Shown: one piece after another, positions 22,015-38,543 of the stretch
Position numbering within the stretch: the first letter of the stretch is position 1
Layout: every line of letters starts with the position of its first letter
Source: Hymenobacter jeollabukensis
GTDB taxonomy: Bacteria > Bacteroidota > Bacteroidia > Cytophagales > Hymenobacteraceae
Assembly: GCF_005771675.1 (NCBI RefSeq)
Contig: NZ_VAJM01000001.1
Span: 868,001-932,000 of the forward strand
Direction of reading: 5' to 3'
DNA length: 64,000 bases
Made by a program: the position numbers and the translations under genes
Notes under the pieces: generated by a model
What the model saw: only the letters and a program-made list of their open reading frames with translations
Database searches by the model: none
What the model was told of the DNA's origin: nothing

Positions 22015-22887
22015 CTACTCCGGGTACTGATAAAAGTGCACGTAGTCGACGAGCATTTCCTTGGGGAAGGGCTCCGAAGTCGTCGGGTCGCCGCCAAAGT
22101 CGCCGCCCACGGCCACGTTCAGGATGGTGTAGAACGGGTTGTTGAAGGGATAGGGCGACACCGTGCCGGACGTGACGGAGTAGACTTCCGTGCCGTCGAT
22201 AAACCAGCGCAGCTGATTCTCGCTGCGAATCAGGCTGAAGGTGTGGAAGGCCTCCGAAAAGTCGCCGCTGGCCAGGCGCCAGCTGGTGCCTTTCTGCTGG
22301 TGGGCGGTGGCGCTGGTGCCGTAGTGCACGGTCATCACGTTTTCGTTGGGCGTGTGGCCGCGCAGCTCCATGATGTCGATTTCGCCGCAGGCTGGCCAGC
22401 CCGTAGTGGCGTCGTCGATGCCCAGCATCCAGATGGCCGGCCAGATGCCCTGGCCCTTGGGTAGCTTGGCGCGCACGTCGAGGCGGCCGAAGCCGTAGTT
22501 CATCTTGCCCTTGGTGACGATGCGGGCCGAGGTGTACTGCCGGGCGCCGGACTGCTCGCGCCGGGCCACGATGTGCAGCTCGCCGTTGGTTACAAACAGA
22601 TTATTGGGCGAGCTGGTGGTGGCCTGCTTTTCGTTGTTGTACCAGTTTTCGCTCACCTCATAGCTCCACTTCTGCTGGTTCAGCGCGCTGCCGTCGAAAT
22701 CGTCGCTGTTGTCGGTAATCTTCCGGGAGTAGTCGGCAAAGGGCCGGGCGGCGGCGTTGGGCGCGGGCGCGGGCGGCACGGGCTTGGGCTTGGCGGGTTC
22801 TTCGGTGCAGCCCGCCAGGCTCAGCGCCAGCCCCAGGCCGGCGCTGGCCCGTAGCGTGCGGCACAGCAAATCAAAAACGGTAAGCAT
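22015..22887 (-). CDS. GH16 endo-beta-glucanase lipoprotein, laminarinase-like
   Basis: A 290-residue beta-jelly-roll glycosidase that cuts internal beta-1,3 (or mixed-linkage) glucan bonds. The catalytic motif is E169-IDIM-E174 in CGEIDIMEL, with D171 between. LSLAGC (C27) is a lipobox, followed by a Pro/Lys-rich linker that would extend the enzyme from a membrane. WPAIWML and HTFSLIRSENQLRWFIDG are conserved GH16 segments. It starts 34 bp after the PKD lipoprotein gene and probably works at the outer surface to cut glucan for the SusC/D importer. Confidence 0.92.
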   Translation of the reverse strand: MLTVFDLLCRTLRASAGLGLALSLAGCTEEPAKPKPVPPAPAPNAAARPFADYSRKITDNSDDFDGSALNQQKWSYEVSENWYNNEKQATTSSPNNLFVTNGELHIVARREQSGARQYTSARIVTKGKMNYGFGRLDVRAKLPKGQGIWPAIWMLGIDDATTGWPACGEIDIMELRGHTPNENVMTVHYGTSATAHQQKGTSWRLASGDFSEAFHTFSLIRSENQLRWFIDGTEVYSVTSGTVSPYPFNNPFYTILNVAVGGDFGGDPTTSEPFPKEMLVDYVHFYQYPE

Positions 22888-22921: not shown

Positions 22922-24232
22922 TTACTTCACGCGCATCTTCATGGTAAACACGATGCCGCCCGCGCCGGTGGGCTTGTTGCGCCCGGCCCGCAGTACCATC
23001 AACGAGTCGTTGATGGAAATGATGCGATACAGCAGGTCGGGCGCATCCGTCACGCCGATGAAGGCGCCCGGGCGGCTCAGTTCAAACTGCGCCACGCCCG
23101 CTCCGCCACTCACTGCCCCGAACGTGAAGTTCGACGTGCCCGAAAGCGGTGCTTGGCAGCCCACCCCGCCTGCCACGAAGGTTTCGGTTTTGGCGTTGTA
23201 GGTGTACACGTTGGCGGCCGAGAAGGTAAACTCGTCGTCGGCCTGGCAGGGCGGCAGGGCTCCGGCCGCGCCGCCGCCGTAGTAGCCGCCCGGGCTGGCG
23301 TCGTTTTCGCCTACGATAATGGCGGCAGCCTTCCGGTTGTCCAGTATCCAGGTGCGCGAGGTGGTGCCCGTTAGCTGCAGCTTAATGAGTTCCAGCGCCG
23401 AAAGCTGGGGCAGCAGCGTCACTTCGGTCTTGGTGCCGTCGGGGTTGGTGCCCTGCAGGCGCAGGATGGTGGCCGACGCCTCCACGATGTTGTAGGTTTT
23501 ATTGACCACCGAGTCGGCCGTGCCGATGAAGGCGCCTTTGCCCTGCAGGATGATCTGGCCCAGCACGCTGCCGCTGCCGGTTTTGTAGACGAAGCCGGAA
23601 TTGGCCGTGCGGGCCGGGCCGCAGGTGCCGCCGCTGTAGGTGCCGGCGCCCGCGTTGTAGCTGTAGGAGTAGGTGTTGGCGAAAGAAAACTCGTCGTCGG
23701 TCAGGCAGGCATCCAGCGGCGCGGCGGAGGACGAGAGGACCGTCCCGCTGGCCGACAGGCGCTTGATGGCGCCGGGCTGGTCGCTCAGGCGCCAGGAGGC
23801 CGAGCCGGTGCTGCCGCTGCACTTGGTCAGGGCGTTGAAGGTCGCGTCGCCGCAGAGCGAGGGAATGGTGACCGTCTGGACCGGCGACACGGCCGTGCCG
23901 CCGCGTCCGGCCGCGGTCAACTTCACCTGGTAGGCCCCGGCGCGGGTGTAGGTGTGCTTCACCACCTCGCCGGCCCGGTGGGTTTCCAGGGCCGAGCCGT
24001 CGCCGAAGTTCCACTGCTCCAGAAAGTCATCCTGGCTGCTGCTGGTAAACGTCACCTCCACCGGGTACTGCGCGGTGTTGAGCTGGGTGCTGAAGGCGGC
24101 GGTGGGCACGGGGCCCTCCAGGCCGTCGGGGTCGTCTTCCTGGCAGCTGCCCAGCAGCAGGCCCCCGAGCAGCAGCGCCATGCTGCCGGCCAGGGCCGGG
24201 CGGCGCAAAGAGAAAAGCGTATCGAAATGCAT
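22922..24232 (-). CDS. PKD-domain surface lipoprotein with duplicated domain, probable glycan-binding protein
   Basis: The position straight after susD is that of SusE/SusF-type surface glycan-binding proteins. The 436 residues have a lipobox LLGSC (C30), an acidic QEDDPDG stretch that resembles a surface export signal, and a PKD domain (about 42-124, with WNFGDGS). Two homologous domains follow, at about 136-275 and 288-436. Both contain W-x-L near the start, Cys-x2-DDEF-x-F, YNA-x3-T, a second Cys, GAFIG, and a late LRL/LRAG strand. I do not recognise this repeated domain by name. No catalytic residues are apparent. Binding of beta-glucan is inference from context. Confidence 0.72.
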   Translation of the reverse strand: MHFDTLFSLRRPALAGSMALLLGGLLLGSCQEDDPDGLEGPVPTAAFSTQLNTAQYPVEVTFTSSSQDDFLEQWNFGDGSALETHRAGEVVKHTYTRAGAYQVKLTAAGRGGTAVSPVQTVTIPSLCGDATFNALTKCSGSTGSASWRLSDQPGAIKRLSASGTVLSSSAAPLDACLTDDEFSFANTYSYSYNAGAGTYSGGTCGPARTANSGFVYKTGSGSVLGQIILQGKGAFIGTADSVVNKTYNIVEASATILRLQGTNPDGTKTEVTLLPQLSALELIKLQLTGTTSRTWILDNRKAAAIIVGENDASPGGYYGGGAAGALPPCQADDEFTFSAANVYTYNAKTETFVAGGVGCQAPLSGTSNFTFGAVSGGAGVAQFELSRPGAFIGVTDAPDLLYRIISINDSLMVLRAGRNKPTGAGGIVFTMKMRVK

Positions 24233-24253: not shown

Positions 24254-25741
24254 TTAGTACCCGGTATTTTGGGTCAGCTTGGGGTTGATGTCGCGCTCCG
24301 ACTGCGGGATGGGCAGCAGCGTGTTGAACTCCTGAATGTTTTTGCCGCGGGCCCGCATGGTCGAAACCAGCGTGTTGGTGCGCTTCAGGTCGTACCACCG
24401 GTCGTCCTCGAAGGCCAGCTCGTAGCGCCGCTCGCGCAGCACGGCCGCCTTGAAGTCGGGCGTGTTGGCGGGGGTCAGGTCGTGGGTGGTGTCGCCGAAG
24501 GCGCGGCGGCGCACGATGTTCAGGTTCTCGAAGCCCTCGGTGGTGGCACCCAGGGCCTCGGCCAGAATCAGGTGCATCTCGGCCAGGCGCAGCACCGGAA
24601 TGTTCAGCTCCGAGTCGTGGCAGCAGTTGTTGGCGCGGCCCACAAACCACTTCTTCACGTTCAGGCCGTTGGGCGAGCCGGGCAGCGAGTTGGGCTGCGC
24701 GGTGCCGGCGGTGGTGCCGGCTGGGTAGGCGTCGCCGGGGCGCCAGATGGTGACGGCGCGGCGGGTGTCGCCGGTTTCGTAGCCCTGGGCAAACTCCAGC
24801 ATCGGCACGTTGAAGCCGTAGCCGCTGTTGGGCGTCAGGCCCTGGCCGCGCGGGGCGAAGAACTCGTTGCCCTTGAAGCCCACGCCGTAGTCGTTCCAGG
24901 TGGTTACGCTCGACTTGAACTGCACCTCGAAAATGGATTCCTGCCCGTTTTCGGTGGCCACCTTGAAGTTGTTGCCGTAGTCCGACCAGAGCTGAAACTT
25001 GCCGGAGTTAATCACCTGGCGGGCGGCAGCGGCGGCTTCCGTCATCTTTCCGCGGGTCAGTTGCACCTTGGCCAGCAGGCCCACGGCCGACCACTTAGTG
25101 GCCCGGCCGGCGTCGTCGCCGGTGTACTTTTCGAAGGCGGCCAGGTTGGTGGCCGCGTCGTTCAGGTCCTTCACGATCTGGGTGTACACCTCTTCCTGCG
25201 GACTGCGGGCAATCAGCGCCTCGGCGGCCGATTTGGGCGGGGTTAGGATCAGCGGCACGTCGCCGTAGATGCGCACTAGGTGGAAGTAGTAGAGGGCCCG
25301 CAGAAACTGCGCCTCGCCCAGGCAACGCTTGCGGATGCTCTCCGTCATGCTGATGCCCGGTACGCGCTCCAGCACCAGGTTGGCCCGGCCGATGCCCAGG
25401 TAGCAGGCCGACCAGTGCTCGAAAATCAGCGGGTTGGTCGGGGCGATGGTGTAGTTGTCGAGCTGCACGTACTCGGCCCCGTCGCCGCCGCCGCCGCCGC
25501 CGGTTTCGGAGTTGTCGGCCATCACGTCGCCGAAGCCCCAGAGCGAGGCGTTGTAGAGGCCCTGCTGGGTGAGCACCCCGTAGGCCGCGTTGGTGGCCTG
25601 AATGGCGTCGGTTTCGGTTTTGTAGAAGCTGGCCTCCGTCAGGCGGTCGGTGGGCGCCTGGTCGAGGAATTTATCGCCGCAGCTGTTGAGCAGCAGGCTC
25701 GCAAGCAGCGCCGCGCCCAAAAAACGTTTGGTATGTAGCAT
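24254..25741 (-). CDS. SusD/RagB family outer-membrane glycan-binding lipoprotein (beta-glucan locus)
   Basis: A 495-residue SusD homologue, the lid that captures oligosaccharides above its SusC partner. The signal peptide ends in LLNSCGDKFLDQAPTDRLT, where C21 is the lipid-bearing residue and the FLDQAPT segment is typical. The C-terminal RAFGDTTHDL..ELAFEDDRWYDLKRTNTL matches the conserved RagB/SusD ending. The ATG at 25741 is 66 bp after the susC stop, the normal order. Confidence 0.94.
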   Translation of the reverse strand: MLHTKRFLGAALLASLLLNSCGDKFLDQAPTDRLTEASFYKTETDAIQATNAAYGVLTQQGLYNASLWGFGDVMADNSETGGGGGGDGAEYVQLDNYTIAPTNPLIFEHWSACYLGIGRANLVLERVPGISMTESIRKRCLGEAQFLRALYYFHLVRIYGDVPLILTPPKSAAEALIARSPQEEVYTQIVKDLNDAATNLAAFEKYTGDDAGRATKWSAVGLLAKVQLTRGKMTEAAAAARQVINSGKFQLWSDYGNNFKVATENGQESIFEVQFKSSVTTWNDYGVGFKGNEFFAPRGQGLTPNSGYGFNVPMLEFAQGYETGDTRRAVTIWRPGDAYPAGTTAGTAQPNSLPGSPNGLNVKKWFVGRANNCCHDSELNIPVLRLAEMHLILAEALGATTEGFENLNIVRRRAFGDTTHDLTPANTPDFKAAVLRERRYELAFEDDRWYDLKRTNTLVSTMRARGKNIQEFNTLLPIPQSERDINPKLTQNTGY

Positions 25742-25807: not shown

Positions 25808-28800
25808 CTAGAACCCGATGTTGACGCCGCCCAGGAAGGTACGGGCCTGCGGGTAAGTGCCGCGGTCCACGGCGTTGCCGCCCACCTCGGGGTCGAAGCC
25901 CGAGTACTTGGTCAGCGTCAGCAGGTTCTGGGACGATACGTACACTCGCACCTGCTGCCCGCCGATGGCGCCGACCCACTTTTTGGGCAGCGAGTAGCCC
26001 AGCGTGAGGGCCTTAATGCGCATGTAGGAGCCGTCTTCCACATAGTAGCTGCTCACCCGCTGGTTTTGGTTTGGGTTGCTGGTGGTGGCGCGGGGCACGC
26101 TGTTGCTGGTGCCCGGGCCGGTCCAGCGCCCGAGCACGCGGGTGGTGGAGTTGCCGTTGCCGTTCAGGCCGCCCTCGGTGTAGAAGCGGTTCAGGTTGTA
26201 CACGTCGTTGCCCTGCGAGCCTTGCAGGAACACGTACAAATCGAAGCCCTTCCACGCCACGTTGTTGATCAGGCCGTAGGTGAAGTCCGGGTTGGGGTTG
26301 CCGATCTGCGTGCGGTCCAGGTCGTTGATGGTGCCGTCGCCGTTCACGTCTTTGAAGCGGATGTCGCCGGGGGCAGCGCCCGCCTGGGTGGCGTGGGCCT
26401 GTACGTCCTCCTCGGTCTGAAAGAGGCCGTCGGCCACGAAGCCGCGGAAGAAGCCGAAGGGGTGGCCCTTGTCGTAGCGCACCACGGCGCCGCTGCGGTA
26501 CACCTGCCCGTCGTAGGGCAGGCCCGAGCCCAGCGAAGTCAGCTCGTTTTTGTAAGTCGAGAAGTTCAGCGTGGTCGTCCAGGTCAGCTCACCCTTGGCA
26601 ATGTTGCGCGTGGTCAGAGCCAGGTCGATGCCGCGGTTGTAGGCCGAGGCGGCGTTGGTGGGCGGCGCTTCGTAGGTACCCGACACGCGCGAGGGCGGCA
26701 CGCCCGCAATCAGGTTGGGCGACTTGCGGTTGTACACGTCGATGATGGCCTCCACGCGGTTGTCCCAGAAGCCCAGGTCCAGGCCCACGTTCAGCTGCTG
26801 GTTTTTCTCCCACTTCAGCAGGTCGTTGGGCAGCCGCGTGGGGGCCGCGCCCTGGTTCACCGTCTGGCCCTGTTCGCCGAAGGGGTAGATAATGTCGGTG
26901 TTGATGGTGGGCAGCGAGGCAAAGGCCCCGGCGTTGGCGGGGTTGCCCACCACGCCGTAGCCGGCGCGCAGCTTCAGGTTGCTGATCAGGCGGTTGTCCT
27001 GCAGGAAGCCCTCCTCCGAGAGGCGCCAGCCGGCCGACACGCCGGGGAAGAAGCCGAACCGCTCCCCGCTCTTGAAGGCCGACGAGCCGTCGTAGCGCAC
27101 GATGGCGGCCAGCATGTACTTGCCGGCGTACTCGTAGTTGAAGCGGCCGAAGTACGAGGCCAGCGAGGTTTCGCTGCTGGTGCCGTTGTTGTAGCGCTTA
27201 TCGTTGCGCGGGCCGGCGTCGAGTTCCTGCAAGTCGGGCCGAACATAGTCGCTGCGGCCGCCGCCCAGGTTGTAGAAGTTGAACTGCTGCCCCGACTGCC
27301 CCAGCAGGGCCGTCACCTGGTGCTTGCCGGCGAACAGGTGGTCGTAGGTCAGCGTATTCTCGATCAGGTAGCTCGGCGAGTACGCGGAATTGGCGTTGGC
27401 GGTGATGGTGGCGTACTTCGGAATGCTCGGAATGCCGGGCCGGAAGTAGCGGCTGTAATCGAAAATCATGTCCACGCCCACGTTGGTGCGGAAGCGCAGC
27501 CCTTTCACGGGCTCCAGTTCGGCATAGAGCGTGCTGAGCACCCGGTTGCGGGTGAATTTCTTTTTGTCCAGCAGGGCTTCGATGAGCGGATTGGGCTCGG
27601 TGAAGGCATCGGCCACCGGGTCGGGCATGTTCCAGGTGCCGTCGGGCTTGTAGGGCTCCACCGTGGGCGGCATCTGCAGGGCCAGCGTCACGATGCCGTT
27701 GAACTCGTCGGTGGTGTTTACCTGCCGGTCGCTCAGGTGCGTGAGCGAGAGGCTGTTGCCCATCCGAAACCACTTGTTCACGTCCAGGTCGCCGTTGGCG
27801 CGCAGCGTGAACCGCTCGAAGTTCGAGCCAACGATGGTGCCATCCTGTTTGTAGTAGCTACCCGCCACAGCGTAGCGGGCCTTGTCGCTGCCGCCGGTGG
27901 CCGTCAGGGAGTAGTTCTGAATGGCGGCCCGGCGGAAAATCTGGTCCTGCCAGTCGGTGCCTTCGCCCAAGGACTGCGGGTTCTGCAGCTTGGGCAGCAG
28001 GGCCGTGTTGCCCGCGATGCGCCCCTCGTTGTTGATGACGGCGTACTCCCGGGCGTTGAGCATGTCCAGCTTGCGCCACACCTGCTGCACGCCGCGGTAG
28101 GCATCCAGGTTGATGCTGGCTTTGCCCGCCTTGCCGCGCTTGGTGGTGATGATGACCACGCCGTTGGCGGCGCGCACCCCGTAAATCGAGGCCTGCGCAG
28201 CGTCCTTCAGCACGTCGATGCTCTCGATGTCGTTGGGGCTGATGGCGTTCAGTTGGTTTTCGTCGCCGGGGGGCAGCGGAAAGCCGTCCACCACGTACAG
28301 CGGCGCGTTGTAGCCGGCCGAGGTCACGCCGCGCACCCGCACCGAGGTACCACCCGCGCCACCCGGCGCGCCGGAGTTCTGCGTCACGGTCACGCCGGCG
28401 GCCCGGCCCTGCAGCGCCTGCGTGGGGTCCGAAATCGGCTGCTGCCGAATTTCCTGGCCCGATACCGAGGCTACCGCCCCCGTCACGCTGCTGCGTTGCT
28501 GGGTGCCGTAGCCCACCACCACCACTTCGCCCAGCGCCTGCAGATCTTCCTGCAGCTTCACGTCCAGGCCCGTCGTGGCGCCCGAAACGGGAATTTCCTG
28601 CTTCATAAAGCCCACCGCGCTGATGACCAGCGTGCTGCCTTCGGGCACGTTCAGCGAAAACTGGCCTTCGGCGTTGGTGCTGGTGCCCAGCGTGGTGCCT
28701 TTCACGATGACGGTGACGCCGGGCATCGGCGCCCCATCGGTCTGGGTCACGCGGCCCGACACGGGCACGTCGGCCACGGCAGGGCGGTGGCTGCGGGCGT

Positions 28801-28909
28801 CGCCGGGGCTGGCAGCAGCTAGCGCGGGGGCGGCCAGCGTCAGCAGGCCGCAGGCTGCCAGGGGTACCGCCCGCCGCAGTATGGAATGCGGGTAAAAGTG
28901 GTAGCTCAT
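25808..28909 (-). CDS. SusC/RagA family TonB-dependent oligosaccharide importer (beta-glucan locus)
   Basis: A 1033-residue outer-membrane barrel that imports oligosaccharides using TonB. After the signal peptide (ending near APALA) comes a CarboxypepD-like domain (VSGRVTQTDGAPMPGVTVIVKGTTLGTSTNAEGQF), then the VVVGYGTQ segment, the plug domain (VRVRGVTSAGYNAPLYVVDGFP) and the barrel, ending in FLGGVNIGF. The ATG at 28909 is chosen since the signal peptide follows it; upstream in-frame codons add only an odd leader. The 330-bp leader to the predicted promoter is discussed under that feature. Confidence 0.94.
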   Translation of the reverse strand: MSYHFYPHSILRRAVPLAACGLLTLAAPALAAASPGDARSHRPAVADVPVSGRVTQTDGAPMPGVTVIVKGTTLGTSTNAEGQFSLNVPEGSTLVISAVGFMKQEIPVSGATTGLDVKLQEDLQALGEVVVVGYGTQQRSSVTGAVASVSGQEIRQQPISDPTQALQGRAAGVTVTQNSGAPGGAGGTSVRVRGVTSAGYNAPLYVVDGFPLPPGDENQLNAISPNDIESIDVLKDAAQASIYGVRAANGVVIITTKRGKAGKASINLDAYRGVQQVWRKLDMLNAREYAVINNEGRIAGNTALLPKLQNPQSLGEGTDWQDQIFRRAAIQNYSLTATGGSDKARYAVAGSYYKQDGTIVGSNFERFTLRANGDLDVNKWFRMGNSLSLTHLSDRQVNTTDEFNGIVTLALQMPPTVEPYKPDGTWNMPDPVADAFTEPNPLIEALLDKKKFTRNRVLSTLYAELEPVKGLRFRTNVGVDMIFDYSRYFRPGIPSIPKYATITANANSAYSPSYLIENTLTYDHLFAGKHQVTALLGQSGQQFNFYNLGGGRSDYVRPDLQELDAGPRNDKRYNNGTSSETSLASYFGRFNYEYAGKYMLAAIVRYDGSSAFKSGERFGFFPGVSAGWRLSEEGFLQDNRLISNLKLRAGYGVVGNPANAGAFASLPTINTDIIYPFGEQGQTVNQGAAPTRLPNDLLKWEKNQQLNVGLDLGFWDNRVEAIIDVYNRKSPNLIAGVPPSRVSGTYEAPPTNAASAYNRGIDLALTTRNIAKGELTWTTTLNFSTYKNELTSLGSGLPYDGQVYRSGAVVRYDKGHPFGFFRGFVADGLFQTEEDVQAHATQAGAAPGDIRFKDVNGDGTINDLDRTQIGNPNPDFTYGLINNVAWKGFDLYVFLQGSQGNDVYNLNRFYTEGGLNGNGNSTTRVLGRWTGPGTSNSVPRATTSNPNQNQRVSSYYVEDGSYMRIKALTLGYSLPKKWVGAIGGQQVRVYVSSQNLLTLTKYSGFDPEVGGNAVDRGTYPQARTFLGGVNIGF

Positions 28910-29238
28910 GTGTGTGGGAATGGATGTGATTGAGTGAGGTGTTTTTCGGCAAACCGATGCCGGGCCCGTGGGCTTCGGCAAGGCAAAGAGGCAGCCGGGC
29001 TCCGGGCCACGGCGGGCCGGAACGGGCAGTAAGTAGCAAAGGCGGGGAGCCCGCGAGAGGCCTGGGCTCAGGAAAGTGCGGCGGGCAGCTTCAGCTCTTT
29101 AATAGAAGCACGCACCAGGGGCGCCGAAGCGGCGCCCACGCAGGAGGCCGGGCGGGCGGCCATGGCCGCGGGCTGGACTGGGGTGCGTTGATCGAGCCAG
29201 CGAGTGAGGCAGGAGATTAATGGCGTATTAAGGTTGGT

Positions 29239-29270
29239 CAAATATAGCGGCGTTGTTTTTGAAAAATCAA
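29239..29270 (-). promoter_or_regulatory. Candidate promoter of the beta-glucan susC operon
   Basis: On the minus strand TTG (29270-29268) is followed after 21 bp by TATATTTG (29246-29239), a perfect TAnnTTTG element. Transcription would start about 320 bp before the susC ATG, leaving a long leader with room for further control. The TTG is exactly 40 bp from the shared CGCTTACGT motif described at 29308. Confidence 0.6.
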
Positions 29271-29307
29271 GCGACAAAAATGCGCCTATAGCCTAAAAAC
29301 AGCGTTT

Positions 29308-29346
29308 TTCGCTTACGTCGCACTTTCGTCTGTACGCTTAGAGCAC
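29308..29346. promoter_or_regulatory. Putative regulator-binding site with TACGCTTA repeats (susC copy)
   Basis: CGCTTACGT (29310-29318) and TGTACGCTTAGAGCAC (29331-29346) are shared with the region before the multimodular GH16 gene, where the second element matches at 15 of 16 bases (38449-38464). The core (T/TA)CGCTTA occurs twice in the same direction 25 bp apart. Location just upstream of the predicted -33 element suits an activator. Confidence 0.5.
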
Positions 29347-29375
29347 CCTCTTTTCCGGTCGATTATGCGGCTACT

Positions 29376-29387
29376 GCAATCGTTTGC
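29376..29387. promoter_or_regulatory. Imperfect LacI-type operator-like sequence
   Basis: GCAATCGTTTGC has 5 of 6 palindromic base pairs and differs by one base from GCAAACGTTTGC at 38513. Both lie upstream of the shared TACGCTTA motifs. LacI-family proteins favour palindromes with a central CG. On its own the match is weak. Confidence 0.3.
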
Positions 29388-29425
29388 GCCATTCAGCCAC
29401 TCCGGCCCTTACGGGTAAAAAACAC

Positions 29426-29458
29426 AAAAAAAAGTGGGGGTTTAGCCCACTTTTTTTT
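29426..29458 (-). terminator. Intrinsic terminator overlapping the end of the 7TM sensor gene
   Basis: A 13-bp perfect stem (29426-29438 with 29446-29458) made of GTGGG and an eight-base A/T run, with a 7-nt loop. The stop codon (29442-29444) lies in the loop, so one arm encodes the last residues KKVG. On the minus strand the hairpin ends with eight Ts. It isolates the sensor gene from the susC control region. Confidence 0.8.
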
Positions 29459-31517
29459 CACTAGTTTTTGCTTTACTCGCCCACGTCTCCACTTTCCTTG
29501 CCAACACCGGCACGGAGGTTACTTCCTCCTCTCCTGTCTCGTCCGAATCAGCCGCCGTATCGTCGAGCAGCAGGTCGGTCCAGCTCTCGTCTTCGGCGGC
29601 GTCGGCGGCTTGGCGGCGCATGGCTTCCAGCACTTTCTGGCTGAAGCTCCAGCAGGTGGCGCGGCGCAGATCGAGCACGCGCGAGAGTTCCTGCGCGGGG
29701 TAGTTGCCCTTGTGCGTGTGCAGCAGGAACACCGCGTAGAAAGCCTTGACAATGGGAAACTTGCACTTCTGCAGCAAGGTGTACGCCGTGGCCGACTCCA
29801 CGTAGCGGCAGCGGGTGCAGCGGCGGGAGTGCGGCTCGCGGCCTTCGCAGAAGTTGTCGTGGCCGCACTTGCGGCAGTGGTAGCCCTGGGCCCATTTCAG
29901 GTCGGCCAGGTAGCTCAGACAGGCATCCTTGTCGGGGTAGATCTGGCTGAACTCGCCAAAATCCACTTCCTGCGCCAGCACCCGGGCGGCCTGGGCCTTT
30001 TGCAGGTCGCGCTGCAGGTCACCGTTCAGCTTCTCGATGGCGGCCGACTGCAGGGCCAGCAGCCCGTTGGCCTGTAGCAGCTCGCGGTTCTGGGCGGCAA
30101 TGGTTTCGCCCTGCTCGCGCAACTCCTCGGTGCGCTGGGCTACCAGGCCTTCTAGCTCGGTATTGAGTTGATCCTTAAGCTCATCGTTCTGCCGCAGCTG
30201 CTCCACCAGCTGCTCCTGCACCTCGTGCTTTTTGCGCAGCTGCTTCACCAGGCGCTGTTGCGCTCTAAGCGTCGCGTCTTGGATGCCCTTGATTTTCTCG
30301 CCCAGCGCGTAGGACAGAATCACCACTTCCAGCACGAAGGCGGCGTTCATGCTGTACACCGTGAAGGTGTTGGTGAAGGTGTCGATGCCGAGCTTGCGCA
30401 GGATGAGGAAGCCCACGCTGACTACCACCAGCGTGTGGGAAAGCAGGAAAAACCGCGCCGGCCGAAAGCCCCCGCGCCACACCCGCAGGGCAGCCACGAA
30501 CAGCATCCCGTAGGGCAGCAGATACAGCCAGAAGCTCAGGTCCGACTGCCACCACAGCGCGTCGACCAGCAGGGCGGCGGCGCTGAGCAGCACCACGTTG
30601 CGCACCCAGGGGTCGTAGTGCGGCAGGCGCTGCGGGGCATCGAGGAAGTGGCGGGCGTAGTAGCTGAAGGTGAGCAGCAGCAGCGGCGCCGAGCTGATAA
30701 TCACCAGCTGATTGAACCAGGGGTGGCCGGGCCAGAGGTACTGAAAGCCCAGGCCGTCTTCGGAGAGAAACACGAGGCTGCAGCTGAGCACGTAGAGTAC
30801 GTAGCGCAGGTAGGTTTGCTCGTGGGTGAAGAAGTACAGGCACAGGTTGTACACCACCATGATGAGCAGGATGCCGTAGAAGCCGCCCAGCAGGCCATAT
30901 TCCTGCTGAAAACGCTCTACCAGGCCCTGCTCGGTGCGCAGACGGGCCAGGAAGCTGGTCTTGGAGTTGGCCTGCAGGCGCAGGTAGTAGGTCTGCGTCT
31001 GGTCGGCGCGCAGGGGCAGGCGCAGCAGGAAGTTCTTGTAGCCGTAGGGCCGCGAGAAAAACGACCGGTCGGCGCCGGTGTGCACGGCGCTGGCGGGGTC
31101 GGCGGCATCGGGGAAGAACACGACGTCGCTCAGGTGCGAATCGTACAGCTCCAGGTACCAGTGCTGGGGCAGCGGACCGCGGGCCTGCACCGTCAGGCGC
31201 AGCCAGTAGGCCGCGCCGGTGTGCTGCATGTTGGTGGAAATGGTGGAGCCGGCCACGAAGCGGGCGGCATTCACGCCCAGCTGCACGTCGGTCAGCGTCA
31301 TCTTGCCGCCGGGGTCTTCGAGCACGCTGTAGTTGGGCGGCAGAATCAGAACCTCCTCCTGCCGGGCGCTGACGGTCAGCGGCTTCTCAGGGCCCAGCGG
31401 CGCGGCGGTGCTGAAACCGCTGAGCAGCACCCCGACCAGCAGGGTGACGAGCCAGCGCAGCGGGCCAGAGCGGGCAAGGAACAAGAACGTGTTGGGAATG
31501 GGCAAGGTGGGGCGCAT
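29442..31517 (-). CDS. 7TM (7TMR-DISM) membrane sensor fused to an IS1595-transposase-like zinc ribbon and helix-turn-helix
   Basis: This 691-residue protein has a signal peptide (19-39), an extracellular 7TMR-DISM sensing domain (about 45-195, with GAAYWLRLTV and WYLELYDSHLSDVVFF), and a seven-helix membrane domain (about 203-407). A long coiled coil runs from about 408 to 512. Where such receptors normally carry a kinase, cyclase or LytTR domain, this one has a zinc ribbon (C548, C551, C567, C570) and a helix-turn-helix (about 604-636, ELSRVLDLRRATCWSFSQKVLEAMRR). The ribbon plus the KFPIVKAFYAVFLLHTHKG linker match the front of IS1595-family transposases; the DDE domain is missing and an acidic tail follows. 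The likely role is a membrane-bound one-step transcription regulator of the adjacent glucan genes. Domain identities are by eye; DNA binding is inference. Confidence 0.78.
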   Translation of the reverse strand: MRPTLPIPNTFLFLARSGPLRWLVTLLVGVLLSGFSTAAPLGPEKPLTVSARQEEVLILPPNYSVLEDPGGKMTLTDVQLGVNAARFVAGSTISTNMQHTGAAYWLRLTVQARGPLPQHWYLELYDSHLSDVVFFPDAADPASAVHTGADRSFFSRPYGYKNFLLRLPLRADQTQTYYLRLQANSKTSFLARLRTEQGLVERFQQEYGLLGGFYGILLIMVVYNLCLYFFTHEQTYLRYVLYVLSCSLVFLSEDGLGFQYLWPGHPWFNQLVIISSAPLLLLTFSYYARHFLDAPQRLPHYDPWVRNVVLLSAAALLVDALWWQSDLSFWLYLLPYGMLFVAALRVWRGGFRPARFFLLSHTLVVVSVGFLILRKLGIDTFTNTFTVYSMNAAFVLEVVILSYALGEKIKGIQDATLRAQQRLVKQLRKKHEVQEQLVEQLRQNDELKDQLNTELEGLVAQRTEELREQGETIAAQNRELLQANGLLALQSAAIEKLNGDLQRDLQKAQAARVLAQEVDFGEFSQIYPDKDACLSYLADLKWAQGYHCRKCGHDNFCEGREPHSRRCTRCRYVESATAYTLLQKCKFPIVKAFYAVFLLHTHKGNYPAQELSRVLDLRRATCWSFSQKVLEAMRRQAADAAEDESWTDLLLDDTAADSDETGEEEVTSVPVLARKVETWASKAKTSEKKVG

Positions 31518-31750: not shown

Positions 31751-33652
31751 CTACTGCCCGCCCTGGGTAGCAGCTTTGGCCTCGCTGAAGCGCAGCCAGC
31801 TGAGCACGGCGCCCGGCTGCTCCACCACGAGGCGCAGCATGTGCGTACCCGCCGGCAGCGCGACCGTACCGCCACTGATGGTCTGCCAGCCAGCCGCTTC
31901 CGTCGCAGCCGGTGCCACGGTGAAGCGGCCCACGACGGTATCGTTCAGCTTCAGCAGCAGCCGGGCCGGGGTGGCGCCGGCGTTGGTGGCACGCAGCTGC
32001 AGGGCGTAGGCGCCGGCTTTGGGCACCGTCACGGTGTAGCTGAGCCACTCGCCGGCCTCGGTGTGACCCACGCCGAAACCGTTGCCGCCCGCGTCCTGGA
32101 TAGGCTGCACGTCGACGCCGTCGTTGCGGTAGGCGTTGCCGCTGTTGGTGGGCTTCAGCTCGCGGTAGTCGATGCGGGCGTTGTAGGTGTCGTGGTAGGC
32201 CAGGCCCTCGCGGCCCAGGTCGTAGTCGGCGGCCAAGAGGGTGCCGGGCAGCCGGTACGCGGCGAAGGGCTGACGAGCGTCGGCGGGCTGGGTGAGGGCG
32301 AAGAGGGCGTCGCGGTTCACCGCGCAGCTGGCAAACTGGGCGTTGCGCAGCAGGGCGGCCCGGCCGGCGGCCGTGAGGATGCTGCCGTAGGGCGACACCC
32401 GCAGCAGGCTACTGCCGGCGTCCACGCGCTTCAGGTTCCAGTGGCACCAGCCGATGTGTTGGGCATTCAGCTGCTGCACGGCGGCGGCAAACCACTCGTT
32501 GGAGTTTTCGCCCGTCTCCCCTACCCACACCGGCACCTGCCACCGGTCCCGGAACGCGGCCAGGTTCTTCACCAGGTTGATCTGGCTGGGGTTCGGGTCG
32601 CCGGCCGTGGCGTCGTTGGGGCACCAGTAGCGGTGGGCGTTGTAGACGAGGCCGGTTTTGTCCTGGCTTTTCAGCTTGTCCGGCGTCAGGTTGGTGTACT
32701 CGTTGCCGTAGCCGTTGCCTTCCAGCAGCAGCAGGTGCCGGTCCTGCTGGGCCCGCACCGCGTCGATGAGGCGGCTGTACAAAGCGTTCAGCTCTTGATT
32801 ATCAGCCGAAAGTCCGTGCTCGGCGTTGAGGTTGTGCGGCTCGTTGATCAGGTCATACATGGCCACGCGTGCATCGTTTTTATACCGTTTGGCCAGCTGC
32901 TCCCAGAGGCGCACGGTCACGTCCTGGTAAATCAGGCGGCCCCGGGCGTCGCGGCGCTTCCAGAGGTCCAGGGGGCGGAAGTTGTCGTTGATGTTGGCGT
33001 CGGTGCCTTGGCCGCCGGGCGCCGCGTGCAGGTCGAAAACGACGTACATCTTATTCGCCGCGCACCAGTCGAGCACCTGGTCGAGGTGGCGGAAGCCGTC
33101 GAGCGTCTTCGGGTCGGCGGTGAACAGCTCGTTCGCGTCGTACCAGCGGCCGAGCGCCTGCACGTAGGCGTCCACGGCGGCGTCGCTATTGGGGTTCTGC
33201 AGGGCTTTGGTACGGGCGCGGCGCTGCTCTGCGGTCAGAAACAAGTCATAGTGAAACGGCAGGCGCACGCAGTTGAAGCCCTGCCGGGCCAGCCAGTCGA
33301 TGTCGGCCCGGGTGACAAAACCGGCGCGGTACTGGCGGTAGAATTCCTCCACCTCGCGCTCGGGCATCGTCCGCAGCAGGCCCTGCTGGATGCGGCGCTG
33401 GCAGCCGAGGGTATCGGTTTTGAGGATGTAGCTTTCCTGCAGCAGCCAGCCGCCCACGTTGCAGCCGCGCAGCACCACCGGCCGGCCCTGGGCATCCACG
33501 ATTTGCGGCCCCCGAGCCTTCAGCCAGCTCAGCTGCTGGGCCGATGATGAGAGGCTGGGCAGCCCCAGCAGCGCCGTGAGGGCCAGGGCGCCGGCGCGCC
33601 GCAGGCTAGTCGCTACCGAAGGAAAAAAAAGGCGGGTAGTACGCTGATTCAT
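31751..33652 (-). CDS. GH5 family glycoside hydrolase with C-terminal CBM, secreted
   Basis: A 633-residue retaining glycosidase. The acid/base is E271 in YDLINEPHN and the nucleophile E379 in WVGETGEN, the standard GH5 pair. A signal peptide lies in residues 1-39 (ALALTALLGLPSLSSSAQ). The start of the mature enzyme (LRGCNVGGWLLQESYI) resembles exo-1,3-beta-glucanase-type GH5 members. From about residue 480 a CBM6/CBM35-like beta-sandwich follows (GVGHTEAGEWLSYTVTVPKAGAYALQLRATN). The ATG at 33652 gives the signal peptide a normal start. The activity on beta-1,3-glucan is inferred from the locus. Confidence 0.85.
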   Translation of the reverse strand: MNQRTTRLFFPSVATSLRRAGALALTALLGLPSLSSSAQQLSWLKARGPQIVDAQGRPVVLRGCNVGGWLLQESYILKTDTLGCQRRIQQGLLRTMPEREVEEFYRQYRAGFVTRADIDWLARQGFNCVRLPFHYDLFLTAEQRRARTKALQNPNSDAAVDAYVQALGRWYDANELFTADPKTLDGFRHLDQVLDWCAANKMYVVFDLHAAPGGQGTDANINDNFRPLDLWKRRDARGRLIYQDVTVRLWEQLAKRYKNDARVAMYDLINEPHNLNAEHGLSADNQELNALYSRLIDAVRAQQDRHLLLLEGNGYGNEYTNLTPDKLKSQDKTGLVYNAHRYWCPNDATAGDPNPSQINLVKNLAAFRDRWQVPVWVGETGENSNEWFAAAVQQLNAQHIGWCHWNLKRVDAGSSLLRVSPYGSILTAAGRAALLRNAQFASCAVNRDALFALTQPADARQPFAAYRLPGTLLAADYDLGREGLAYHDTYNARIDYRELKPTNSGNAYRNDGVDVQPIQDAGGNGFGVGHTEAGEWLSYTVTVPKAGAYALQLRATNAGATPARLLLKLNDTVVGRFTVAPAATEAAGWQTISGGTVALPAGTHMLRLVVEQPGAVLSWLRFSEAKAATQGGQ

Positions 33653-33735
33653 AGCTGAAATCGAAAGCGGCAAAAGCGAGAAACGGGGCGAGGAAACCCC
33701 GCCCCGTTGCCCTCGCATTCACTCACTTCAAAAGG

Positions 33736-36700
33736 TTATTCCTTGATGATTTTCTGGGTCTGAACGCTCGTCGCGCTGCGCACCGAGAGCTGGTACACGC
33801 CGCGGCGCAGCGCCTGAACATCCAGCGTAGCGGTGGCCTGCTTGGCGGCCGTGGTCTGCGTCAGCACCACCCGGCCGAGGGCGTCGGTGAGGGTAATGGT
33901 GGCGGCTTCGGCGGTGGGCAGCGGCACGGTCAGCTGCTCGCGCACCGGGTTCGGGTAAGCCAGCGGGGCCGCTTGCGCCCGGGCCGCTTTGCTGGCCAGG
34001 GCCGGGCGGCTGCCGGTGCAGGTGCTGCCGGCGGTGTAGCTGTGCGGGGTGGCGCTGGAGTTGCGCTCGGCGGTGCTGGTGCCCACGCGGTAGGTGAAGT
34101 AGAACGACAGCGCCGCGCCGGCCGCCTGGGCCTGCGAGAAGGTGAAGTTGCTGCCCGCGGCCGTCATCTGGTAGCCCGCGTAGCCGCCGGTGCCCACTTT
34201 CACATAGATCAGGGCCATGGTGCTGCCGGCAATGGGCGTGAGCGGGATGAACTTCCAGCTTACCGTGCCGCTGGTGGTCGACACTTCGTAGCTGTAGTCG
34301 CCATTGGCGACGGTGCCGGTGCAGAGGCCGGTGCCGCCCGGGTTGGTGCCGCCGGCGGCCGTGCCGTACACCTCCAGCTCGTAGAGCGAGTAGCCGTAGG
34401 CGGTGCCGCGGGCCGTGCCGTAGATGCGCACGTAGCGGCCGGTGCCCGTCAGGCCGGTGTGGTCGTTGACGAGCGTGGCGTTGCCCGCCACGGTCCTGAT
34501 GGTGGTCCAGGTGGCCGCATCGGCCGATACCTGCACCAGGTAATCCTTGCCGTAGGCGCCTTCCCAGGTTAGCTTCACCCGGCTCACGCTGTAGCTGGCG
34601 CCCAGGTCCACGTACAGCCACTGCGGGTCGGAGAAGGCGCTGCTCCAGCGGGTACTCGTAGCGTTGCCGTCGACGGCGGCCGAGCCGGGCGTGCCCGCGT
34701 TTTCGGTCGAGGAGGTGAAGGTCGGCTTGTTCAGGGCCAGGTTGGGGGCCGCCGCTGCGGCCGTGAAATTCAGCCAGTTCACGTTGCAGCCCGTCGAGGC
34801 CGCGGCGTACAGGCGCAGGGTCTGCGCGCCGGCGGGCAGGGTCACGGTGGTGCTGAGGGTCTGCCAGTTCTGCCAGCCGCCGGTGTTGCCCACGTTGATG
34901 CTGCCGAGCACCGTGCCGCCGCTGTTGCGCAGCTGCAGGGTGGCGCCGCCGTTGGCCGAGGCCACCCGGAAATCCACCGTGTACTGCCCGGCCGCGGCCA
35001 CGTTCACGCTGTAGTCCAGCCAGTCGCCGGTTTCAAACCAGTCCACGTTCACCCCGCCGCCGGTATCGGTGGTGGCTTCCGTCTGCGTGCCCGACTGCGT
35101 GCTGAAGCTTTCCGCCTCTATCTTGCCCGGAATGGCCTGCGCGGTCGGTGCGGCCGATACGGTGACGCTCACGGCGGCCGAGGTCGTCACGGCGCCGGCG
35201 TTGTCGGTGGCTTTGGCCGAGAGGCTGTAATTGCCCGCGCCTACGCCCGTCCAGGTGTAGCTGTAGGGGCTCGTGGTGGCGGTGCCGAGCAGGGTGCTGC
35301 CGTTGTAGAACTCCACCTTGCTGATCGAGCCATCCGAATCCGAAGCGCTGGCCGTGAGGCCGATGCTGGCCGGCGCCGCGAATGAAGCGCCGCTCACCGG
35401 CGAGGTCAGGCTGACGCTCGGGGCGGCGTTGGTAGCGCCGTTCTTCGTCAGGCTGCGCAGGTTGTCGATGTAGAACGTGGCGCCCGTCAGCGTATTCGGG
35501 GCGAAGAGGAACACCGAGTTGTCCACGTCGGCGTCGGGCGTGCCGGGGTCGGGGGCGCTGGCGAAGGTGAAGACGAGCGTGTGCCAGGCGTTGGTTTGCT
35601 TGACGACGGCCTGGTAGATGCTGTGGCGGCCGGTGGGGTAATTCTGGGGCCGGGAGGCCGCGTTGCTTTCCAGCTGCCAGGACACGACCGTACCGGCCGG
35701 GGCTGAGGTATACACGTCCATGGCAAACGCCTTGTCGCCATTCTTGTAGGCCGCGCCGTCCTTGGTCAGCAGGTTGCGGAAAGCCAGCACGTCGTATTGC
35801 TCGCTCGCGTTGCGGGCGTACTGCCCCACCTTGGTCGAGGTGTTGATGCCCGTGGCCGAAGGGTTGTTCACCACGGCCGCGTAGGTGCCGTTGGCGCTCA
35901 GCAGGGTCAGGTTGCGCGTCGCGTCGTAGTTCTCGAAGGTGGCGGCGACGGCGTAGGTCGGCGCGGCGGCCCGCTTCACGATGCGGATGTTGTCGACGTA
36001 ATAAGTGTCGCCGGTCAGCGAGTTGTTGCCGAACAGGAAGGCCAGCTCGTCGATGGCCACGTTGGCCGTGCCGCCGTCGGGCGAGGTTACGTAGTTGAAC
36101 GTCAGCGTCTGCCACTGGTTCTGCACCGTGGTGCGCGCCTCGTAGGTGCTGTTGCGCCCGGCCGGGTAGGTATTGGCGGCGGCCGCCTTGTTCTGCAGGT
36201 TTAGCAGCACGGCGGTGCCCACCGGCGCGGCCGTGTACACGTCGGCCTGAATCTGGTAGGTCTGGTTCTTAAACAGCGCCGCGTCCTCGATGATGGTGCC
36301 CGCCGGCGTGGCGTCGAAGAACAGCACGTCGTACTGCTCCGCGCTGTTGCGCACGTACTTAGCCACCCGGGCCGAGGTATTCACGCCCGTCGCCGCGGGG
36401 TTGGCGAAGTTGGCCGTGTAGGCGCCGTTGGTCTTGGCGGCGTTCTGGCTGATGCGGGCCGCGCCGTCGTAGTTGATCAGCACGTCGGTGCTCACGATGG
36501 CCGGCACGGGCTGCTGCTTCACCAGCAGGTTGTCGAAGTAGAACGTGGCGCCGGAGTTGGTGGCGGGCTGAAACAGCAGGGTCACGTTGTCGATGCTGTA
36601 GATGCTGGTGCCCGCGTCGATGCTGCGCTCCAGGTCGAATTCCAGGGTTTCCCAGGCGTTCTGCCGGCTGGTGTAGGCGCGGTAGGCGCTGTGCCGGCCC

Positions 36701-38133
36701 AGCGGGAAGTTGGTGGCCGTCGTCACCGCGCTGTTTTCCAGCTGCAGGGTCACCTTGCTGCCCACCGGCGCCGTGGAATACACGTCGAGGTAGATTTTCT
36801 TGCGCCCGGCCACGAAGTCGTTGGCGTTGCCGACGGTGAGGTTGCGCAGCGAAATCACGTCGTACTGCTCGGCGGTGTTGCGCACGTACTTCGCCACCTT
36901 GGCCGAGGTGTTCTGCCCCCCGCTCACCGGGTTGGTCAAGGCCTGGGTGAGCACGCCGGTGGCCGAGGCGTAGGTGATGAAGCGGTTGGCCTCGAAATCC
37001 TCGTAGAGCTTTTCCAGCTGCAGGGCCGGGCTGACCGTCACGCCCAGCGCGTAAGTCCCGGTCGGGCAGCCGCTCACGGCCGTTGTCACCGTCACGTTGC
37101 CGCCCGCCGACGAGCCCCAGCTCACCTGAATGGCGTTGGTGCCCTGCCCGGCGGTAATCGTCGCGCCGGCCGGCACCGACCAGCTGTACGTGGCCCCCGT
37201 CACCGCGTCGAGGCGGTAGGTTTTGTTGGTATCGTTCTGGTACACCGTCTCGTCGCCGAGCACGGCGTAGTTGTAGCTGCCCTTGTAGACGCGCACGAAA
37301 TCCACCTGCATGGTGGTGGGGTAATCGGCCGGGTTGGGGTTCTGGTAGCCGGTGAAGCCGGTGCCGGGCCCGCCCACGGCGGCGTTGAGCATCAGGTAGA
37401 AGTTGCCGTCGTTGAAGGGCCAGGAGCCGCCCGAAGTGGTCTTGGGCGAGGCCGTGTGGTAGAGCGTGTTGTCGATAAACCACTTGATCTGGTTGGGGCT
37501 CCACTCCACCGCGTAGGTGTGAAAGCCGGTGCTCAGATCCACCGTGCCCGTGGCTTCGCGGCCGGTGAAGTGCCAGCCGTTGTCGTCGTAGTGAATGGTG
37601 CCGGCGACGGAGGTCGGGTTCTTGTGCTTGGCCTCCATGATGTCAATTTCGCCGGTGCTGGGCCAGTTGCCGGGGTCGGGCAGCATCCAGAACGCGGGCC
37701 ACACGCCCTGCCCCGAGGGCAGCTTGATGCTGGCTTCGATGCGGCCGTACCTGAAGGTCTGCAGCGCGCCGGCGGCCGTTTTCGAAAACAGCTTGGCCGA
37801 GGTGTAGGCATAGTTGCGCCCGCCCACGGTGCTCGGCTCGTAGCGGGTGGTGATGGTGAGGTAGCCGCCGGCCACGGCGGCGTTGGCGGCGCGGTAGGCC
37901 TGCAGTTCGGCGTTGCCGAAGTTGCAGTTGCCCTCGGCGCAGCCGTCGCCCTCGTACACGCGCCACTTGCTCAGGTCGCCGGCAGTGTTGAACTCGTCCT
38001 GCCACACAATCTGGTTGCACTGGGCCAGGGCGGTGCTCGGGCTGAGCGCGGCGAGACCTGCGCCGGCGGCCAGCGCCTGGGCGCTGCGGCGGAGCCACTG
38101 CCCGGCCCGCCCGGTGAGTAGAAGTGTTGTCAT
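33736..38133 (-). CDS. Giant multimodular GH16 beta-glucanase with Ig, CBM6, CBM32-like and CBM56-like modules and type IX sorting tail
   Basis: A 1465-residue secreted enzyme. In order: signal peptide (1-38), GH16 catalytic domain (about 40-285, E162/D164/E167 in GEIDIMEAKH), a PKD-like domain (290-370), and three homologous modules of about 165 residues (372-540, 548-722, 728-896). Each of these has AKYVRN-x-AEQYDV, a later APVG or APAG loop and a closing YxDN strand. Then come an Ig-like domain (902-994), CBM6 (1000-1125), an F5/8-type or CBM32 domain (1128-1257), a module like CBM56 (1268-1374) and a type IX secretion sorting domain (1390-1465, AYPNPVREQLTV). CBM56 is known to bind beta-1,3-glucan, which supports laminarin or curdlan as substrate. 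ATG at 38133 is preferred over the longer frame because the signal peptide follows it. Confidence 0.9.
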   Translation of the reverse strand: MTTLLLTGRAGQWLRRSAQALAAGAGLAALSPSTALAQCNQIVWQDEFNTAGDLSKWRVYEGDGCAEGNCNFGNAELQAYRAANAAVAGGYLTITTRYEPSTVGGRNYAYTSAKLFSKTAAGALQTFRYGRIEASIKLPSGQGVWPAFWMLPDPGNWPSTGEIDIMEAKHKNPTSVAGTIHYDDNGWHFTGREATGTVDLSTGFHTYAVEWSPNQIKWFIDNTLYHTASPKTTSGGSWPFNDGNFYLMLNAAVGGPGTGFTGYQNPNPADYPTTMQVDFVRVYKGSYNYAVLGDETVYQNDTNKTYRLDAVTGATYSWSVPAGATITAGQGTNAIQVSWGSSAGGNVTVTTAVSGCPTGTYALGVTVSPALQLEKLYEDFEANRFITYASATGVLTQALTNPVSGGQNTSAKVAKYVRNTAEQYDVISLRNLTVGNANDFVAGRKKIYLDVYSTAPVGSKVTLQLENSAVTTATNFPLGRHSAYRAYTSRQNAWETLEFDLERSIDAGTSIYSIDNVTLLFQPATNSGATFYFDNLLVKQQPVPAIVSTDVLINYDGAARISQNAAKTNGAYTANFANPAATGVNTSARVAKYVRNSAEQYDVLFFDATPAGTIIEDAALFKNQTYQIQADVYTAAPVGTAVLLNLQNKAAAANTYPAGRNSTYEARTTVQNQWQTLTFNYVTSPDGGTANVAIDELAFLFGNNSLTGDTYYVDNIRIVKRAAAPTYAVAATFENYDATRNLTLLSANGTYAAVVNNPSATGINTSTKVGQYARNASEQYDVLAFRNLLTKDGAAYKNGDKAFAMDVYTSAPAGTVVSWQLESNAASRPQNYPTGRHSIYQAVVKQTNAWHTLVFTFASAPDPGTPDADVDNSVFLFAPNTLTGATFYIDNLRSLTKNGATNAAPSVSLTSPVSGASFAAPASIGLTASASDSDGSISKVEFYNGSTLLGTATTSPYSYTWTGVGAGNYSLSAKATDNAGAVTTSAAVSVTVSAAPTAQAIPGKIEAESFSTQSGTQTEATTDTGGGVNVDWFETGDWLDYSVNVAAAGQYTVDFRVASANGGATLQLRNSGGTVLGSINVGNTGGWQNWQTLSTTVTLPAGAQTLRLYAAASTGCNVNWLNFTAAAAAPNLALNKPTFTSSTENAGTPGSAAVDGNATSTRWSSAFSDPQWLYVDLGASYSVSRVKLTWEGAYGKDYLVQVSADAATWTTIRTVAGNATLVNDHTGLTGTGRYVRIYGTARGTAYGYSLYELEVYGTAAGGTNPGGTGLCTGTVANGDYSYEVSTTSGTVSWKFIPLTPIAGSTMALIYVKVGTGGYAGYQMTAAGSNFTFSQAQAAGAALSFYFTYRVGTSTAERNSSATPHSYTAGSTCTGSRPALASKAARAQAAPLAYPNPVREQLTVPLPTAEAATITLTDALGRVVLTQTTAAKQATATLDVQALRRGVYQLSVRSATSVQTQKIIKE

Positions 38134-38368
38134 GATGGTTGTGGAGGTTGGGGAATGAGCGGGCAATAGCCGGCTGTCTGCCTCACCAAGTGGAGCAGCA
38201 ACCTCTGCCGGCGCAAGCGGCCGGCAGGCTGGGGCGCGGCAGCCCGCGAGTAGCGGACCTTGCCGACGCCGGGCAGGAAGAGCGGGAAGGGTCCAGGGCC
38301 CCGGCCGTGGTTGGGGAAAAGGCGGGCAGCGGTGCAGCCGCGGCGGCCGGTCAGGGACTCTGGTTGAT

Positions 38369-38399
38369 CAAAGCTATGGGGGTTGTTAGCCAAAAGCAA
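38369..38399 (-). promoter_or_regulatory. Candidate promoter of the multimodular GH16 gene
   Basis: On the minus strand TTG (38399-38397) is followed after 20 bp by TAGCTTTG (38376-38369), a perfect TAnnTTTG match. It is about 235 bp before the GH16 ATG. The distance from TTG to the shared CGCTTACGT motif is 40 bp, the same as before susC. Confidence 0.6.
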
Positions 38400-38430
38400 G
38401 CATAAAAACTTCCTTCAGAAGCCAGAAACG

Positions 38431-38464: not shown

Positions 38465-38512
38465 ACGGTTGTGTCACGTATTTGCCGCGCCAACGCCCTT
38501 AAATCAGTGGCT

Positions 38513-38524: not shown

Positions 38525-38543
38525 GAAGCGGATAACAAACAAT

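Follow-up and report, generated by a model that had tools for sequence, protein, structure and literature searches.

A 64,000-nucleotide stretch of the Hymenobacter jeollabukensis genome (contig NZ_VAJM01000001.1, positions 868,001 to 932,000), referred to as the window, carries a gene for a 7TMR-DISM receptor that ends in a zinc ribbon and a helix-turn-helix (HTH) related to IS1595-family transposases. The receptor is likely a membrane one-component transcription regulator of the surrounding beta-1,3-glucan locus, which would bind GTGNNNTAAGCGTA-like elements through this transposase-derived head. The domain make-up, the homology to transposases, the single clade of the module, the synteny with susC-susD and the conserved element were computed directly.

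Domain architecture of the receptor

The receptor gene and its domains, all encoded on the minus strand, are as follows.

29442–31517, minus: receptor gene, 691 residues; single open frame without internal stop
30939–31334, minus: extracellular 7TMR-DISMED2 domain, residues 62–193; Pfam E 3.3e-24
30297–30899, minus: 7TMR-DISM_7TM seven-helix domain, residues 207–407; Pfam E 1.8e-43, helices in the AlphaFold2 model
29973–30296, minus: linker helix or coiled coil, residues 408–515; unbroken model helix 384–495
29802–29933, minus: IS1595-type zinc ribbon, residues 529–572, with Cys548, Cys551, Cys567 and Cys570; Pfam PF12760 (Zn_ribbon_IS1595)
29601–29786, minus: IS1595-type HTH, residues 578–639; NF033547 match and model helices 588–601, 608–615 and 619–639
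29445–29600, minus: C-terminal tail with the conserved tryptophan W646 and an LLLD-like motif; alignments

Matches of Pfam to both the PF07695 seven-helix domain and the DISMED2 ectodomain place the protein among the 7TMR-DISM receptors. By sequence matches, the membrane part and a putative DNA-binding domain are united in one chain, the make-up that a transmembrane one-component regulator would have. The best Foldseek match of the ectodomain is the periplasmic domain of RetS (3jyb, E 1.2e-4). The AlphaFold2 model of the full-length receptor (mean pLDDT 68.1, pTM 0.46) consists of a beta ectodomain, seven membrane helices, helix 384–495, the strands of the ribbon and the three helices 588–601, 608–615 and 619–639. 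Over residues 384–520, hydrophobic residues fill 61% of the a/d positions in the best heptad phase, compared with 35% elsewhere. An earlier note on this DNA, made from the letters alone, had described the order of signal peptide, 7TMR-DISM ectodomain, seven helices and coiled coil. Pfam and the model agree with it, the signal peptide being judged by eye.

The same note had likened the C-terminus to the start of IS1595 transposases without the DDE nuclease. The profile searches bear this out. PF12760 matches with 26.0 bits (E 9.3e-6), just above the curated cut-off of 25.4, and the four cysteines are at the positions originally named. The NCBIfam model of IS1595 transposases, NF033547, aligns its positions 2–56 (of 215) with residues 585–638 (E 3.8e-7). 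The score of 30.2 bits is far under the full-transposase cut-off of 75 bits because only the HTH part matches. A chance match of the zinc ribbon was ruled out by PF12760, the alignment and NF033547 together. Pfam finds no DDE nuclease (PF12762) in the receptor, which stops about 50 residues past the HTH. Therefore, the protein is not a transposase. HisKA, HATPase, receiver and AraC HTH domains are not among its Pfam matches up to E 10.

Outside the ribbon and the HTH, W646 in the C-terminal helix (29550–29600, residues 640–656) is invariant in an alignment of 14 rows and in one of 16 Hymenobacter rows; a contact to RNA polymerase is possible. The protein ends in EKK[VM]G in several close relatives.

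Origin of the ribbon-HTH module

The module and the IS1595/ISXO2 transposases are homologous over about 125 residues, although the ribbon is N-terminal in the transposases and C-terminal in the receptor. The four cysteines of the ribbon are retained in 35/35 rows from sensor proteins and 19/19 rows from transposases (truncated transposase frames L091 and L096 dropped). The HTH residue T621 is present in 97% of sensor rows and 89% of transposase rows, W623 in 89% and 95%, respectively. This constraint across class-wide divergence fits a DNA-binding fold that has been kept. It speaks against the improbable alternative that the ribbon-HTH no longer binds DNA and serves as a protein-protein output, for example towards another regulator or RNA polymerase. 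That alternative draws on the conserved C-terminal tryptophan, which could be a protein contact, and on the low-confidence model of the region, which lends no support for a DNA-binding surface.

Ten module proteins were scanned for the nuclease. DDE_Tnp_IS1595 is above the cut-off in L109, L110, L092 and L094. In L086, one of nine copies in genome G521, the DDE match is below the Pfam cut-off, yet the protein is above the NCBIfam IS1595 cut-off. L091 is a short frame without DDE, and the other four are sensors.

In a tree of 56 rows, a single clade comprises all 35 sensor modules (support 100/99) and branches from within the 21 transposase rows. The tree was rooted on 12 typical transposases, the root being an assumption, and most of the transposase rows were classed by frame length and not by a DDE test. 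It omits the fragments L093, L104 and L117, most near-identical Hymenobacter rows, and L030 and L025. The sensor clade has its nearest neighbors in transposases from G037 and G521; the joint group has a support of 97/84. Of the sensor modules, 30 belong to 7TM receptors, two (L113, L114) to Reg_prop/Y_Y_Y beta-propeller proteins and three (L112, L116, L089) to short proteins. Judged from this topology, the simplest history would be one capture from an IS1595 transposase followed by re-use in other sensor types. The idea of a captured transposase module, put forward at the outset, is supported by this tree.

Reg_prop/Y_Y_Y is an ectodomain type of glycan-sensing hybrid two-component systems (HTCS). 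The two beta-propeller proteins (L113, 891–3893, plus strand; L114, 1006–4209, plus strand) end in the transposase-derived module in place of kinase, receiver and AraC domains, and L114 precedes susC-susD. Genome G521 has nine IS1595-type transposase copies (including L086, L107 and L108), which rank among the closest relatives that the receptor module has.

Descent of the module from the IS1595 transposase family raises the question whether the receptor competes for the ends of resident IS1595 elements and so regulates transposition. This is very improbable. In its own genome no PF12760 match besides the receptor is above the cut-off (the two weaker ones score 18.8 and 17.4 bits), and the gene stays with SusC/SusD. 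The receptor gene is present in one copy, and the single copy and the kept synteny speak against mobility of the module.

Distribution of the fusion

A search with the whole protein gave some match in 63/98 genomes, many of these being other 7TMR-DISM proteins that match the receptor part only. The full-length fusion is present in 16 named Hymenobacter loci from separate assemblies (56–95% identity) and, at about 27–34% identity, in members of other families within the order (G067, G070, G073, G077, G078, G089, G091). The recurrence of the full-length fusion in many genomes rules out a frameshift or sequencing artefact. Accordingly, the joining of two genes by a sequencing error, which the earlier note had named as one of two results that would overturn its reading, was not borne out; no point in its favor was found and its probability is negligible.

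Profile A1 of the C-terminal module, built from 14 rows, matches 155/341 genomes of the order (61/121 genera) and 57/395 genomes of the phylum, both tallies including transposases. Other orders within the class likewise have receptor-length frames with the module (G607, G498). The Hymenobacter genomes G003, G004 and G005 have no module match in the profile search. A 7TM profile made from Hymenobacter proteins matches 77/80 sampled carriers outside the genus. The three carriers without this match are two of the beta-propeller type (L134, L135) and L133, a protein of 611 residues that aligns to residues 102–652 of the window protein.

Linkage to susC and susD

The receptor gene is located between a GH5 gene and susC, which confirms its placement in a beta-glucan locus directly before the susC control region. 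The neighboring genes are listed below.

25808–28909, minus: susC-type TonB-dependent transporter, probable target; Pfam plug and barrel, ATG start chosen by eye
24254–25741, minus: susD, probable target; domain scan of the locus
22922–24232, minus: PKD-domain protein, lipoprotein by eye; domain scan of the locus
22015–22887, minus: GH16 glucanase; domain scan of the locus
31751–33718, minus: GH5 and CBM6 glucanase; domain scan of the locus
33736–38133, minus: GH16 and CBM6 glucanase bearing a secretion tail; ATG start selected by eye

The gene families of the window include GH16, GH5, GH3 and CBM. Judging by these families, the gene set of the locus would be fitting for beta-1,3/1,4-glucan.

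SusC and SusD are found downstream of the receptor on the same strand in 14/16 Hymenobacter loci. The remaining two are cut by contig ends, within SusC (L040) or just past the receptor (L047). A GH16 gene follows susC-susD in 12 of the 14; the contigs of the other two (L043, L048) stop before that point, and in both a GH3 gene is present between the receptor and SusC. A close orthologue of the window SusC is missing from seven genomes that lack the receptor (best identity 44%, compared with 66% in two receptor-bearing genomes).

Outside Hymenobacter, 80 loci were sampled, 20 of them chosen for spread and the other 60 drawn from the best matches listed, sometimes several per genome; four of the 80 have no room for the downstream check. 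Among the 76 whose downstream room is at least 3 kb, SusC is directly downstream on the same strand in 27, at 155–656 bp, and SusD is present in all 27 loci. The beta-propeller variant L114/L135 is counted among them. Compared with a chance rate of at most about 3%, a generous estimate from SusC numbers and density, the binomial P is 5e-22 for these hand-picked loci, uncorrected for relatedness or for the picking. The synteny supports the tie of the receptor to SusC/SusD genes that the earlier note had proposed.

A conserved element upstream of susC and the glucanase genes

Promoter comparison located the following features in the window.

29426–29458, minus: terminator-like hairpin closing the receptor gene and dividing it from susC; consensus scan
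29416–29425, minus: T-tract GTGTTTTTTA (TTGTTTTTTA in many relatives), at a near-fixed distance upstream of the operator-like element
29375–29388: palindrome CGCAAACGATTGCA, candidate site of a second, perhaps LacI-type, regulator; promoter comparison
29330–29346, minus: candidate operator GTGCTCTAAGCGTACAG upstream of susC; conserved pattern
29310–29315, minus: TAAGCG repeat, the second of two spaced 25 bp apart; promoter alignment
29239–29270, minus: susC promoter TTGATT ... TATATTTG; promoter comparison
38512–38525: palindrome CGCAAACGTTTGCA in the GH16 promoter; promoter comparison
38448–38464, minus: another candidate operator, GTGCGCTAAGCGTACAT, located upstream of the GH16-GH5 genes and 88 bp ahead of TAGCTTTG; pattern match

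The terminator-like hairpin ends the receptor gene, so that susC probably has its own promoter. The last codons and the stop codon of the receptor are part of this hairpin. The sequence TTGATT ... TATATTTG we take to be the Bacteroidetes-type consensus.

The GTGNNNTAAGCGTA-like element, GTGNNN[TC]A[AG]N[CT]GTA, is situated 99–100 bp before TAnnTTTG in 15/15 Hymenobacter susC-operon promoters (the window, L035–L039, L041–L046 and L048–L050). In L043 and L048 it precedes the GH3-susC operon. The pattern was derived from these 15 loci, hence their count is no independent test. The near-constant spacing between element and promoter despite a divergent background is the informative point. In 15/15 susC-type and 6/7 GH16/GH5-type promoters the T-tract precedes the element at a near-constant distance of about 77 bp; TGTTTTTTA is exact in the window and 13/14 Hymenobacter relatives.

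In the promoters of the GH16/GH5 genes, the element is present in the window and in 6/6 examined relatives (7/7). Its distance to TAnnTTTG is 100 bp in one promoter and 88 bp in the other six, a difference of about one helical turn. Candidate operators are thus found in both regions that had been proposed for DNA-binding tests (28910–29441 and 38134–38530). A further operator-like element with a T-tract is present in L040 (6903, minus strand), facing away from the receptor to the divergent side with a GH16-like match.

In the 6.2 Mb of the own genome, the sole perfect match to the 17-bp pattern is that of susC. With up to two mismatches there are 34 matches compared with 12 for the reversed pattern. 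Four matches have one mismatch: one belongs to the GH16 gene of the locus, one precedes a GH64 beta-1,3-glucanase gene on another contig and two are inside open frames. The 16 Hymenobacter loci (535,314 strand-bases) contain 26 matches, 14 at susC operons (training), 6 at GH16/GH5 and 6 elsewhere.

Two sets of SusC genes not known to adjoin a receptor served as controls. The element is absent from the sense strand in 25/25 high-scoring SusC genes from 18 genomes (0/25 with the element) and in the second set (0/16, with 1/16 on the other strand). Receptor-linked Hymenobacter SusC genes in these two sets have the element in 5/5 cases, mostly loci already counted.

Proposed mechanism and competing regulation

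The mechanism is drawn by analogy to 7TMR-DISM receptors and to the 7TMR-DISM proteins with a ChiS domain, as described in passages of PMC8092284. We infer the ligand, the dimerization, the DNA binding, the element that is bound and the activation. The probable ligand of the DISMED2 ectodomain is an oligosaccharide set free from beta-1,3-glucan. Its binding would shift the seven-helix bundle and the continuous helix or coiled coil, and the conformational change would reach the cytoplasmic ribbon-HTH. This may bring two ribbon-HTH heads onto repeats (TAAGCG at susC, at a distance of 25 bp) upstream of RNA polymerase. Having lost the DDE nuclease, the module would bind DNA and not cut it. In Hymenobacter it probably sits on the GTGNNNTAAGCGTA-like elements 88–100 bp upstream of the susC-susD-GH16 and GH16-GH5 promoters and thereby leads to activation.

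Control of the locus by another regulator, either a LacI-type protein at GCAAACGWTTGC or a different protein at the GTGNNNTAAGCGTA-like element, with the receptor signaling elsewhere, is rather unlikely but has to be weighed. The palindrome GCAAACGWTTGC (GCAAACG[AT]TTGC), which presumably resembles a LacI-type site, has six genomic places with at most one mismatch to its 14-base form. Two of these are the promoters of the window locus, and one (G000:C23:107891-107904) is upstream of another SusC. Because it is shared with this unlinked SusC, the palindrome was set aside as the receptor's own site. Its occurrence suggests a second regulator, perhaps with a LacI-type regulon. Moreover, the element is tied to the receptor by linkage only. 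On the other hand, no sense-strand copy of the element was seen in the promoters of unlinked SusC genes, and the receptor is kept beside its SusC across Hymenobacter while the palindrome is also found at an unlinked one.

Besides the second regulator that the palindrome suggests, several observations weigh against regulation of the locus by the receptor. The ribbon-HTH region of the AlphaFold2 model has low confidence (pLDDT about 53–67), and modelling the C-terminal domain by itself (mean pLDDT 51.6) was uninformative. A sequence search of the PDB with the module profile found no solved relative; the best match, a phage protein (E 0.17), and the next, a MarR HTH (E 0.25), are at chance level. 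L040, which is outside the set of 15 loci, has the core of the element and was missed by the pattern because its spacer is one base shorter. The two matches with one mismatch inside open frames have no visible link to glycans, and their 14-base core is full, as in the GH16 match.

No clear conservation of the element is seen beyond Hymenobacter. There, the Hymenobacter-trained matrix is at most weakly enriched in the 27 receptor-susC gaps (Fisher p 0.026, uncorrected for related loci, and not counted as support), and 0/2 receptor-linked promoters had the element. Furthermore, 49/76 receptors in these genomes have no adjacent SusC. At GH64, the element is present in 3/10 loci (those of the own genome and of two closely related ones), and TAnnTTTG and the T-tract are not at their usual places. 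For these two reasons GH64 was dropped as a conserved member of the regulon and its element is a lead only.

Comparison with known systems

The receptor shares the ectodomain, the seven helices and the long output helix with 7TMR-DISM receptors (PF07695/PF07696; RetS, RgsP and others). Four other 7TMR-DISM proteins from the own and related genomes were scanned. Their outputs are HisKA/HATPase/receiver (one), SpoIIE phosphatase (two) and glycosyltransferase (one); a transposase DNA-binding module is absent from all four. In the 7TMR-DISM receptor L033 (1390–3975, plus strand) the output is a glycosyltransferase of the family-2 type, an unusual combination.

As in the receptor, the ribbon is followed by the HTH in IS1595/ISXO2 transposases. 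The receptor differs from these in lacking the DDE nuclease, in the position of the module behind a receptor and in its kept chromosomal neighborhood.

HTCS of Bacteroidetes are membrane proteins that unite periplasmic sensing with a DNA-binding domain and are encoded beside SusC/SusD. In the receptor, unlike HTCS, no kinase, receiver or AraC HTH was matched. A general description of HTCS is part of PMC10766802.

The plan of a membrane receptor that itself carries a DNA-binding domain is known. ToxR and CadC-type transmembrane regulators act as one-component systems from the membrane, as proposed for the receptor. 7TMR-DISM proteins with a C-terminal DNA-binding domain of the ChiS family have already been published, as passages of PMC8092284 report, and have the working plan in common with the receptor. 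They are proteobacterial, and these passages mention neither a zinc ribbon nor a transposase origin. The ChiS domain is a helix-sheet-helix of about 100 residues, and the receptor region matches IS1595 models. Hence, the claim of a new form of one-component sensing would apply to the transposase-derived output but not to the combination of 7TMR-DISM and DNA-binding domain.

According to the census PMC10269533, which relied on DNA-binding domains listed by MiST, single-pass proteins make up about 56% of transmembrane transcription regulators, and 11 common domains account for about 91%. Neither zinc nor transposase nor 7TM occurs as a word in its main text. A transposase-derived output with a single origin, spread over sensor types and tied to SusC/SusD was not found in the open-licence literature among the matches listed.

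The canonical control of hemicellulase genes involves HTCS, extracytoplasmic function (ECF) sigma and anti-sigma factors and catabolite repression, as summarized in parts of the review PMC10766802. If the proposed regulation is true, a family of receptors whose DNA-binding output derives from a transposase would add a membrane route to these mechanisms and could explain how many SusC/SusD loci in these bacteria are switched on. It would also be a bacterial example of a transposase DNA-binding domain turned transcription regulator. As a compact single-protein sensor with a predicted operator, it would be directly testable.

Beyond 38618, the window contains a glucuronoxylan set (38618–62196) with GH115, two GH10, an arabinofuranosidase, GH3, an esterase, a second SusC/SusD pair, GH67 and UxuA.

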